A DNA stretch of 64,000 nt, taken from Gallibacterium genomosp. 3. Its GTDB lineage: Bacteria; Pseudomonadota; Gammaproteobacteria; Enterobacterales; Pasteurellaceae. Under the pieces are notes generated by a model. It worked only from the letters and a program-made list of their open reading frames with translations. It did no database searches and was not told where the DNA came from. Each line of letters begins with the position of its first letter. Position 1 is the stretch's first letter. The DNA lies in NCBI RefSeq assembly GCF_001678475.1, contig NZ_JTJR01000015.1, forward strand, positions 1 to 64,000. Reading direction: 5' to 3'. A program made the translations under genes and the position numbers. This document shows, in pieces, positions 42,728-45,839 of the stretch.

Positions 42728-43876
42728 TCAAAGTTTATTCGAATGGATAAATACGTCTTTGCGTTTCTGATAATTTTCTAATGTTTCCGCAGCATTATGA
42801 ATAATTCTAGGTGTAATAAAAATCACGAGCTCACGCTTTTGATGGCGTTCTGTTTTACTACGAAATAACTTACCTAATCCAGGAATGTCCCCTAACAACG
42901 GCACTTTATTTTCTCCTTTTCCCATTAAATCATGGAAAATACCCCCTAAAACTACGGTTTCCCCATCTTTCACCATCACTTGTGACTGTACTTCTTGCTT
43001 ATCAATCGTCACCACTTGTCCTGCACCATAAGGAATTGCAGCCCCTGCAGAATTTTGTGTAACAATCAGATCTAACGCAATCATTCCTTGATGCAATATT
43101 TGCGGCGTTACCTCCAAACCTAAAACGGCTTCTTTAAACTCAATATGGGTACGACTACTCCTTTCATTGTCATCTTCTATCACATAAGGAATTTCTGAAC
43201 CTTGTTTAATCACAGCTCGTTTTTGATTGGAGGTTAATAAATGAGGACTAGCAATAATTTCTACATTGTTTTCTTGTTCTAAGGCTTTCAACTCAAGATC
43301 TAATAATCGCCCATGAATTTTGGCGACTTGTAGTGCAATAGAAGCTGCTTCCGAACTGGTAGAAAAGTTGACATTGAGGTGAGCATTCAAATTCTCTACA
43401 CCAAAACTATCCAATTTGGCAGCTACTTTATGAAAATTTTCTGTTTGTCCAAAAATACCCCAACGTACACCTAATTCCTGCAAACTTTCATTATTAATTG
43501 TCACAATCCGAGCTTCAATTGCGATTTGCTCCCCTGGTTTATCTAATTGCATAATTAACTTTCTAAAACGTTCAATCTGATTTTTATCTCCTTTTACTAA
43601 AATCAAATTATTCCTAGGTTCAACGCTAAATCCCGATAACGCAGATAATAATCCGCCACCATTTTCATTGAAAACTTTAGCTAATTCAGTCACTTGAATA
43701 TATTTTACTGCAATAGCTTCATAGTCATCTAATGGCATATCTACATCGGTTACAACCGGATCATTCTCCATAAAACTTGGCGTGATAGATTCAAAAAAGG
43801 GATCATTAATTGATGGTTTAGCGATGCTCATTATTGAAATCACACTACACAATAAACAGATACTTAATTTATTCAT
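42728..43876 (-). CDS. comE: ComE-like secretin (PilQ/HofQ family), short form
   Basis: 382 aa, shorter than H. influenzae ComE (about 445). Signal peptide at 1-19 (ends MSIAKP). Then about 30 residues with DPFFESITP, an N1-type domain (IAVKYIQVTELAKVFN to EPRNNLILVKG to IMQLDKPGEQIAIEARIV, about 53-125) and the secretin domain (about 130-365: ELGVRWGIFGQ, VEIIASPHLLTSNQKRAVIKQGSEIPY, VLGLEVTPQI, VVLGGIF, VPLLGDIPGLGKLFRSK, ELVIFITPRII). The N0/STN domain that normally lies before N1 is not recognisable. It forms the outer-membrane pore for DNA uptake and type IV pili. It starts within the comC stop (ATGA). Confidence 0.85.
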   Translation of the reverse strand: MNKLSICLLCSVISIMSIAKPSINDPFFESITPSFMENDPVVTDVDMPLDDYEAIAVKYIQVTELAKVFNENGGGLLSALSGFSVEPRNNLILVKGDKNQIERFRKLIMQLDKPGEQIAIEARIVTINNESLQELGVRWGIFGQTENFHKVAAKLDSFGVENLNAHLNVNFSTSSEAASIALQVAKIHGRLLDLELKALEQENNVEIIASPHLLTSNQKRAVIKQGSEIPYVIEDDNERSSRTHIEFKEAVLGLEVTPQILHQGMIALDLIVTQNSAGAAIPYGAGQVVTIDKQEVQSQVMVKDGETVVLGGIFHDLMGKGENKVPLLGDIPGLGKLFRSKTERHQKRELVIFITPRIIHNAAETLENYQKRKDVFIHSNKL

Positions 43877-44412
43877 ACACGCCTCATTTCAGAAAATAAC
43901 TGGATTGATATATGTAATCGTCTATACCCTGTTGCATCAGAATCACGTTCGAGTCGAATTGATGAAATTGCCCATTCAGCAAAAATGGATTGAAATAACA
44001 GATCAAAATTTGCAATAAAATCTTGGAAAGAGGTATATAAATGCAAATCAACTTTGAGCAAGTCTTTATTACTCATTTGCATATCAAAATGGATCTCTGT
44101 GTCCTGACTAAGTTGAGTTAGCTGCTGATGTAAGGTAGCGATCTTTTGGGTATTACTTTGTGTATCTTGCTGTTCATTCACTTTCTTTTGTAAAGCTTGC
44201 AGAATGTTTTGTTGCCTCTTTTCTGCTATTGTTAGTTCAGCAATCGTTGCTTTTAATTGAGAAAGTCGATAATCAGAATACCAATTTTGCCACACCGGAT
44301 AAGCCAATATTACAAATAAGGCGACTAACCATAGTAACGCCAACCAATAAGTTGGCAAATACAAAAGATACCAATAGATTCCTTGTGGATATTTTGTTGC
44401 TCGCTTTGACAT
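43873..44412 (-). CDS. comC: ComC, PilO-like inner-membrane competence protein
   Basis: 179 aa. One N-terminal membrane helix (WLALLWLVALFVILAYPVW, about 23-41), then a coiled-coil-prone Gln/Leu-rich stretch (about 50-105) and a small C-terminal domain, the PilO layout. Start overlaps the comB stop by one base and its stop overlaps the comE start by four bases. In H. influenzae comD lies between comC and comE; here there is no room for it. Assigned mainly by position. Confidence 0.78.
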   Translation of the reverse strand: MSKRATKYPQGIYWYLLYLPTYWLALLWLVALFVILAYPVWQNWYSDYRLSQLKATIAELTIAEKRQQNILQALQKKVNEQQDTQSNTQKIATLHQQLTQLSQDTEIHFDMQMSNKDLLKVDLHLYTSFQDFIANFDLLFQSIFAEWAISSIRLERDSDATGYRRLHISIQLFSEMRRV

Positions 44413-44978
44413 TAATTGTCCTCTTTCTTATTGAAACGCAACGTAAAGTTGTACTGTTTCTGTTGATTTTGGGTTAATGCACTCGGTTCTAATTCAATAG
44501 GATAAGGCCAATGGGATAATAAATATTGCTGTAAACGATAGAAGGTTTGTTGATCAACATTCTCTCCCATCATCAAAAAACTTAATTTCTCTTTCTGTTC
44601 TATCGCAAACGGACTAATATCAATTTGTGCCATCAATAAACGCCCTTTATCTAACGGTATTTGCACTAATGACTGCACAAAATGCACAATATCTTGCAAA
44701 GGGATTTTTGCGAGTTGCAGTTGATGGCTAAGAAGTTGTCGCTGTTTTTGTTGGGCGGAGTCTAATTGCTGTAATTGCGTTACTAACTGTTGTCGCTGTT
44801 GATCTAACAGGATATATTCCTGACTCTGCTGGCGGGTATCACGTAATAAAGAAAACCATCCTGCTATGGACAATATCAAAAGTAATAATAATAAAATCAT
44901 TAAGATACGAACTCTGTTAGCGTAATGTTGTTGTCGCCAGTTAAGTAAATTTATTTTATTACTCTGATAATCAAACAT
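44412..44978 (-). CDS. comB: ComB, PilN-like inner-membrane competence protein
   Basis: 188 aa from ATG 44978, which has GGGGG upstream and overlaps the comA stop by 8 bp. The N-terminal INLLNWRQQ is the PilN-type cytoplasmic motif that binds PilM/ComA. It is followed by a membrane helix (ILMILLLLLLILSIAGWF), a Gln-rich coiled coil (about 55-95) and a ferredoxin-like C-terminal domain. Assigned by motif and gene order. Confidence 0.82.
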   Translation of the reverse strand: MFDYQSNKINLLNWRQQHYANRVRILMILLLLLLILSIAGWFSLLRDTRQQSQEYILLDQQRQQLVTQLQQLDSAQQKQRQLLSHQLQLAKIPLQDIVHFVQSLVQIPLDKGRLLMAQIDISPFAIEQKEKLSFLMMGENVDQQTFYRLQQYLLSHWPYPIELEPSALTQNQQKQYNFTLRFNKKEDN

Positions 44979-45753
44979 TTTGCCCCCATAACGCACACCC
45001 TAAACAGATGAATTCACTCACAGATATCTTTGGTAATTGTTGAATAAGATACTTTTCGCTAACCGAGGATAAATCTATCTGTTCCATATCCTGGTCTTGA
45101 AAAACAACAATCGTATTAATTGTTTGGTTTAGCTCTGTAAGATATTTCTCTAGATTAAAAGCAATATTTTCTTGTAAAACAAAGATATCTGTTTTCTGTG
45201 GTAAGTCCAAGAGGAGAATCAATGACGTGGTGAAATAACAATACAGCGTATTTCCTACGGAACAATTCGATGATAAATGACGAAAAGATCTTAATAACAC
45301 TCGAGGTAACACATCCAGTACCCCCAGTTTCAGTGGTGCATATTTAGTGATTTCTTGCTCAGCATATTCCCGTCTTACTGCATAAATCTCTAAATGTTGT
45401 TGCTGATAACAATAATCAAACCAAACCTGCTCACGTTCTATCGGTAATTCATGTTCTAACAGGTGGTAAACCTGCTGCTCGATTGCATATTGAGTTAATG
45501 TTTGTGGATAGTAATAACTTTTTCGCCAAATTAAATGAAAAGGTAACACAGATACATACCTAACATAGCGTAGATCAAGCTGATATTTGTCAATTAGGCA
45601 TTGCTGTAAGCAATTAATACTCTCTACACTACCAGATTTAACCTCAAGATCTTTACTTAAAAAAGCATAGTAAAAACAATCAGATAAATAAAAAATACCT
45701 ATATTAACTGTTTGTTTTTTACCTTTTTTTCGTGGAGGAAATATAGCTTTCAT
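44971..45753 (-). CDS. comA: ComA, PilM-like competence protein
   Basis: 260 aa from ATG 45753 (MKAIFPPRKKGKK); the frame opens 10 codons earlier. Position and size match H. influenzae ComA (265 aa), the actin-like cytoplasmic partner of PilN. Segments such as VLPFHLIWRKSYYYPQTLTQYAIEQQ (read in parts) and LPIEREQVWFDYCYQ (about 100-114) fit HofM/ComA. Divergent from mrcA with 86 bp between. I looked for a Sxy-dependent CRP site (TGCGA-N6-TCGCA) upstream and saw only a weak likeness. Confidence 0.8.
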   Translation of the reverse strand: MKAIFPPRKKGKKQTVNIGIFYLSDCFYYAFLSKDLEVKSGSVESINCLQQCLIDKYQLDLRYVRYVSVLPFHLIWRKSYYYPQTLTQYAIEQQVYHLLEHELPIEREQVWFDYCYQQQHLEIYAVRREYAEQEITKYAPLKLGVLDVLPRVLLRSFRHLSSNCSVGNTLYCYFTTSLILLLDLPQKTDIFVLQENIAFNLEKYLTELNQTINTIVVFQDQDMEQIDLSSVSEKYLIQQLPKISVSEFICLGCALWGQNV

Positions 45754-45839
45754 CGTATAATCGTCACCCAAATTGCAAAACACAAATACACTTTACTGTC
45801 ATTTATTCGTTTTATTTTGATATAGAGGGTCTTTTTTCG

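Follow-up and report, generated by a model that had tools for sequence, protein, structure and literature searches.

The contact between the HR domain of PilP and the N0 domain of PilQ is held to connect the frame in the inner membrane with the pore in the outer membrane of type IV pilus and type II secretion systems. What, then, is to be made of a competence operon in which both sides of this contact are missing? The operon in question lies in a stretch of 64,000 nucleotides of Gallibacterium genomosp. 3 (the window, in what follows), with the minus-strand gene order comA-comB-comC-comE-aroK-aroB-dam and with mrcA (ponA) divergent and upstream; the names of the flanking genes are readings of their translations. 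The initial annotation of this locus held that comD is missing, that ComE is about 60 residues short and lacks its N0 domain, and that an in-frame deletion may have fused the start of comD to comE. In Haemophilus influenzae (operon comABCDEF), the counterparts are two genes, ComD and ComE, with HR and N0 present; the Gallibacterium frame matches them in operon position, in its N1 and secretin domains and in a DPF head, and differs from them in being one gene devoid of HR and N0.

One short frame in place of comD and comE

All features of the operon are on the minus strand. The stop of comC (PilO-like, 43873..44412, placed by its ORF positions) overlaps the start of the next frame by 4 bp (ATGA, 43873-43876), and the ORF reading of the window finds no frame between comC and comE; the coordinates thus bear out the claim that comD has no space here. 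Upstream lie comB (PilN-like, 44412..44996) and comA (PilM-like, 44971..45783, where the ATG at 45753 may be the start), both assigned by position and conservation, as neither has a Pfam match. In the Gallibacterium loci the spacing between comC and the following frame is -4 or -1, values common for comC/comD of intact relatives; comD and comE of those relatives are usually spaced by +8 to +9. A separate observation concerns comA (44971-45783), which in Gallibacterium changes far more rapidly than comE (omega ~0.35-0.49 versus 0.05-0.07, in the more distant pairs).

The frame itself (42728..43876) encodes 382 aa. A typical intact relative (L051) has 445 aa and the family ranges over ~420-485 aa, which confirms the shortfall. 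Its closest named relatives are those of Gallibacterium salpingitidis F150 (86% identity), Gallibacterium genomosp. 1 (78%) and G. anatis DSM 16844 (78%; this strain is F149, genome G051, locus L094). Pfam recognizes only Secretin_N at residues 54-117 (39.7 bits, cut-off 28.2) and Secretin at 198-359 (PF00263, 170.5 bits, cut-off 27.5). With the structural model, PF03958 sets the KH-like N1 domain at residues 51-117 (43526..43726); the pore domain occupies 42800..43285 (E 3e-50). The type IV pilus secretin model TIGR02515 is also passed (322.4 versus 284.35 bits). The HofQ equivalog NF010083, which describes the full-length architecture, scores 345.7 bits, below its threshold of 554, and its match begins at profile position 124. 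We accordingly class the protein among the ComE/HofQ secretins, as a variant, and propose no new family for it.

No STN/N0 domain could be found in the window's ComE: there is no Pfam match to it, no room for it before N1, and none in the AlphaFold2 model (41 family sequences as input, mean pLDDT 65). That model, a prediction of the kind the initial annotation had suggested for the N-terminal region, has a signal helix at residues 2-18, disorder at 19-47 (pLDDT<50) and the N1 fold from residue 51. Compared by Foldseek with the HofQ N0-N1 crystal structure 2Y3M, it aligns over 67 columns only, about one of the two domains; both domains of 2Y3M are covered by the family profile, and intact members have N0 in the family alignment.

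The other partner was sought with a profile of 36 intact ComDs, run over whole genomes in six frames. It recovered ComD in every intact control genome (E 1e-15 to 1e-35). Of the four Gallibacterium genomes, three gave no ComD, the window's own among them; the remaining one gave a weak partial match (E 0.075) within an open frame of 360 codons. The search thus shows no comD relocated elsewhere in the window's genome. The globular HR domain of ComD/PilP, with its two conserved cysteines, is absent from the short frame and has no match elsewhere in the window's genome. Both partners of the contact are gone, as had been claimed.

What has not gone is the beginning of ComD. Intact ComDs, which are PilP by Pfam in 30 of 36 cases and by fold (PDB 2y4y, E 4.9e-5; 3jc8, 2.5e-5), have a signal peptide followed immediately by DPF, with P and F invariant in all 36 aligned sequences. 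DPF is absent from the first 100 residues of correctly read full-length ComEs; the single full-length ComE to bear it (L038) is an over-long ORF reading into comD. By contrast with these, all 11 short Pasteurellaceae ComEs carry DPF or NPF behind a signal peptide. In the window the signal peptide (residues 1-19, 43820..43876; helix 2-18 in the model) is matched by the ComD profile from position 3, and it leads to DPF at residues 25-27 (43796..43804), identified by ComD alignment and profile; the frame thus carries the signal peptide and DPF segment typical of ComD/PilP. A disordered, fast-evolving linker follows (residues 28-50, 43727..43795), delimited by low pLDDT and by pN/pS. It holds the fusion junction, although the exact DNA breakpoint could not be placed within it, the sequences being too diverged.

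When matches are required to cover the motif, each of the 11 short ComEs gets 5.7-26.2 bits from the ComD profile for its N-terminus; the background of 266 signal-peptide-like ORFs goes no higher than 3.2 bits, and intact ComEs no higher than 2.6. The window's head scores 6.2 bits, which is weak alone; its ComD origin is argued from the conservation of the head in the genus and its sister genus and from the stronger scores elsewhere (15-26 bits in the other fused lineages). In a blind whole-genome search, the best ComD matches in G082, G013 and G111-G114 fell on the opening ~40 residues of the short comE ORF. In G082 the two parents can be recognized on plain inspection: the head, SARDPFDKRQRS against ADPFDKTQRQ of intact ComDs, runs as ComD to the linker and then as the ComE N0-N1 linker (NEPNLTTTSIKLHYAKA). 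Pairwise alignment to the nearest intact ComD was good for two of the five heads of the Gallibacterium group and no better than shuffles or controls for the other three; therefore the profile test was relied on instead. The profile scores support the proposal of an in-frame comD-comE fusion, in which the short ComE begins with a signal peptide of ComD type and then DPF, the segment that is best conserved in ComD apart from HR.

Distribution and number of origins

The com region was read from 60 other Pasteurellaceae genomes and, with the window, gave 61 loci. Four could not be assessed: L036 ends with its contig, L082 has a stop in comE, and L040 and L067 have damage at the 5' end of comE. Among the remaining 57, 46 have both comD and N0, 11 have neither, and none has one alone, a co-occurrence far above chance. 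The 11 fused cases comprise four Gallibacterium genomes, G096, G082, G013 and four of genus g36 (G111-G114); thus, besides Gallibacterium, the fused architecture is found in seven sampled genomes of four genera. The two losses are joint in every fused case, and DPF is almost always retained. The original framing as a joint loss of interacting parts needs correction: the deletion is real, but loss of function is not evident, the loss matters less than the fusion, and the fusion is not unique to this genome.

A single origin for all the Pasteurellaceae fusions is rejected by the trees. On a PBP1A tree of 60 loci there are four changes of state, each forced by well-supported branches; four are found again when SecA+PBP1A are used for 30 genomes, at least three of them forced. 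Gallibacterium and G096 share one common origin, and genus g36 sits in the other deep clade of the family (100*). AU tests reject a grouping of Gallibacterium/G096 with G082 (p 1e-4) or with G013 (p 0.004). Gallibacterium with G013 is not rejected on PBP1A alone (p 0.12), and adding SecA rejects it; G082 and G013 as a single origin are not rejected (p 0.23).

The same build is met in Enterobacteriaceae, where an order-wide search brought up two 355-codon HofQ frames aligned from residue ~20. HofP/HofQ have the same gene order as ComD/ComE, and most genera retain N0 in HofQ and a separate HofP, whose motif is of the RDPFRP type. One starred clade, represented by 15 genomes in the tree (genera g109, g251, g207, g196, g161 and g241), instead has the operon hofM-N-O-Q, without hofP, and a HofQ of 348-368 aa. 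Here the absence of hofP rests on locus structure only, as the Pfam PilP genome search is uninformative in this family (it missed the HofP of intact controls also). The signal peptide of these HofQs is followed by RDPFQPP, RNPFAPP, REPFTPP, RDPFFPE or KDPFQAP, and in g207 (L158, L159, L160, L177) by RDLFQPV. This last is the sole fused genus seen without the proline, which argues that the proline is not essential; in all fused genera but one, [DNE]PF persists across species while the surrounding linker diverges. G512 has the same fused build outside the starred clade, and a common origin with it is not rejected (p 0.21). For Pasteurellaceae and Enterobacteriaceae together, at least four and at most six origins would be a safe count, since the pairings of G082 with G013 and of G512 with the Enterobacteriaceae clade both stay unrejected. 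A secretin-core tree, weakly supported, does not bring the fused groups together, which argues against the spread of one fused gene by transfer. Faster evolution of the secretin core after fusion appears in Gallibacterium and G013 and is not seen in g36 or G082; it is not claimed here as a consequence of fusion.

Selection, competence and the question of decay

A deletion of this kind has been met before and was taken for a defect. Redfield et al. 2006 (PMC1626085) described in Histophilus (Haemophilus) somnus a deletion that joins the 5' end of comD to the 3'-terminal 67% of comE; this is the same kind of event as that in Gallibacterium, but the H. somnus fusion carries a frameshift and was classed as defective, whereas the Gallibacterium frame is intact, conserved across species and selected. 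Genome G082, with an intact frame, may be H. somnus, a guess based on agreement in the 3' fraction. The fused comE has an omega of 0.05-0.07 in Gallibacterium and 0.11-0.12 in g36, as compared with 0.06-0.09 in intact comE; these Pasteurellaceae values are rough, dS being near saturation in most pairs, and the closest pair (dS 0.25) gives 0.046. The fused genes of Enterobacteriaceae give 0.05-0.15 at dS 0.25-0.71. By pN/pS, the pore and N1 are low and the linker is relaxed (0.23-0.74 over residues 21-56). The fusion frame is open in all four Gallibacterium genomes and intact in every fused genome. The relaxed selection or broken frame of an H. somnus-type defect was thus not found in Gallibacterium, and these ratios indicate that the fused genes are under strong purifying selection.

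Each of the 11 fused Pasteurellaceae genomes has ComEC/Rec2, TfoX/Sxy, ComEA and a protein of PilC type. As to function, one report (PMC10269479, citing Kristensen et al. 2012) describes G. anatis as naturally transformable; of nine strains tested, F149T was the weakest, at nearly three orders of magnitude below 12656-12; knock-outs of 12656-12 have been made by M-IV transformation (PMC9425032). These reports concern G. anatis only, not the species of the window. The fusion is present in all four sequenced Gallibacterium species sampled, and among the transformable strains the genome was read for F149T. That genome is fused and the strain is reported transformable; therefore the fusion is not simple decay, and no loss of function is evident. 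The initial annotation had named normal transformation as something that would refute it; this too needs correction, since F149T is reported transformable and the deletion is nonetheless real. An observation apart is that in G. salpingitidis F150 (G052, C1:40994-41176) the TfoX/Sxy frame has 142 aa with a partial TfoX_N match and is possibly truncated, so that competence regulation may be lost in that strain.

One might still read the fusion as competence on its way out, with comDE an early casualty as proposed for H. somnus, and the frequent breakage of competence genes in Pasteurellaceae would fit. This we judge very improbable in general and, for Gallibacterium, largely refuted: besides the competence genes retained and the transformation reported in G. 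anatis, the frames are intact wherever the fusion occurs, omega is ~0.05-0.15 and the fusion is kept across whole genera. Real decay in this family has another appearance, namely a comE broken at its 5' end, shortened or interrupted by a stop beside an intact comD, as at L040 (G108), L067 (G073) and L082 (G131). The least probable reading is that the short secretin has been repurposed for pilus display, for the use of DNA as nutrient or for secretion, rather than for transformation proper. We know of no efficient transformation supported by the hof genes of Enterobacteriaceae, and in that family the fused form has reached fixation across a large clade, points that speak for repurposing; however, in Gallibacterium the fusion belongs to a com operon of the usual kind, in genomes that have the other competence genes, and the usual M-IV protocol leads to uptake and recombination of DNA in G. 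anatis.

A probable covalent link between frame and pore

The explanation that we consider probable is as follows. An in-frame deletion would have taken out the HR domain of ComD (PilP) together with the N0 domain of ComE (PilQ), and joined the ComD signal peptide and DPF segment (~30-50 residues) to the N1 domain of ComE. The product would be a working DNA-uptake secretin, in which a covalent tether takes over from the HR:N0 bridge that joined the pore to the ComB/ComC (PilN/PilO) frame; each secretin subunit would bear its own DPF peptide, docking on ComB/ComC. In PilP, the unstructured N-terminal part binds PilN/PilO (PMC5805733) and the C-terminal domain binds N0 of PilQ (PMC3441751). A tether is the simplest reading because the deletion removes exactly the two domains that bind each other and keeps the segment on the PilN/PilO side. 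By analogy with these contacts, the retained head presumably docks on ComB/ComC; a literature search found no published study of DPF docking on PilN/PilO. We infer, too, that the fused pore is the pore for DNA uptake. The chain of contacts from PilN/PilO to the secretin would be the same as in the PilNO-PilP-PilQ alignment complex of type IVa pili (Pseudomonas, Neisseria, Myxococcus), with a covalent link for HR:N0 and, it is expected, one secretin ring layer fewer. The diverged Gallibacterium head, the fast linker and the DLF of g207 may be counted against this explanation, as may the low transformation of F149T and the classing of the H. somnus fusion as defective.

The linker and the DLF also lend something to an alternative: the secretin is truncated yet functional, the HR:N0 bridge is dispensable for DNA uptake, and the ComD head is kept for its signal peptide and ribosome-binding context, with DPF docking nowhere. 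A start codon and a signal peptide that still serves are what one would expect to survive a random in-frame deletion; moreover, conservation of the linker is poor, and g207 has turned DPF into DLF. What makes this unlikely, in our judgment, is the motif: a role as signal peptide needs no DPF, yet [DNE]PF lasts in every fused genus but one while the linker around it diverges, and its P and F are invariant in intact ComDs.

The tether reading is extended by genus g124 (L147, L170, L171, L173; G395, G564, G645, G767), in which hofO and hofP (PilO-PilP) are fused in frame: HofP is set on the C-terminus of HofO, with RDPF just past the PilO part, and HofQ keeps N0. The ORF in G564 seems to take in hofN too. 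Taken together with the fused HofQs, these genomes show the DPF segment attached in nature to either of its neighbours, PilO or PilQ. A broader proposition then seems somewhat better than an even bet: that the contact of PilP-HR with PilQ-N0 is replaceable, repeated deletion with welding of DPF onto the secretin having produced working single-chain PilP-PilQ pores in both Pasteurellaceae and Enterobacteriaceae, and g124 having welded PilP to PilO instead. If this is true, DPF is the minimal element coupling the inner-membrane frame to the pore. Selected, recurrent natural machines that do without HR:N0 and retain one short motif would reveal which part of PilP is indispensable; they call into question the indispensability of a textbook contact, and would offer ready-made minimal systems for structural work. 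Automatic annotation as ‘comD absent’, ‘truncated ComE’ or ‘non-competent’ is misleading for the fused genera. No report of intact, repeatedly evolved PilP-PilQ fusions was found in the literature searched, and priority is uncertain. Farther afield, ORFs on two secretin-bearing contigs of Omnitrophota (L103, L104) start with a signal peptide and RRDPF, which suggests that the motif may be a hallmark of PilP far beyond Proteobacteria.
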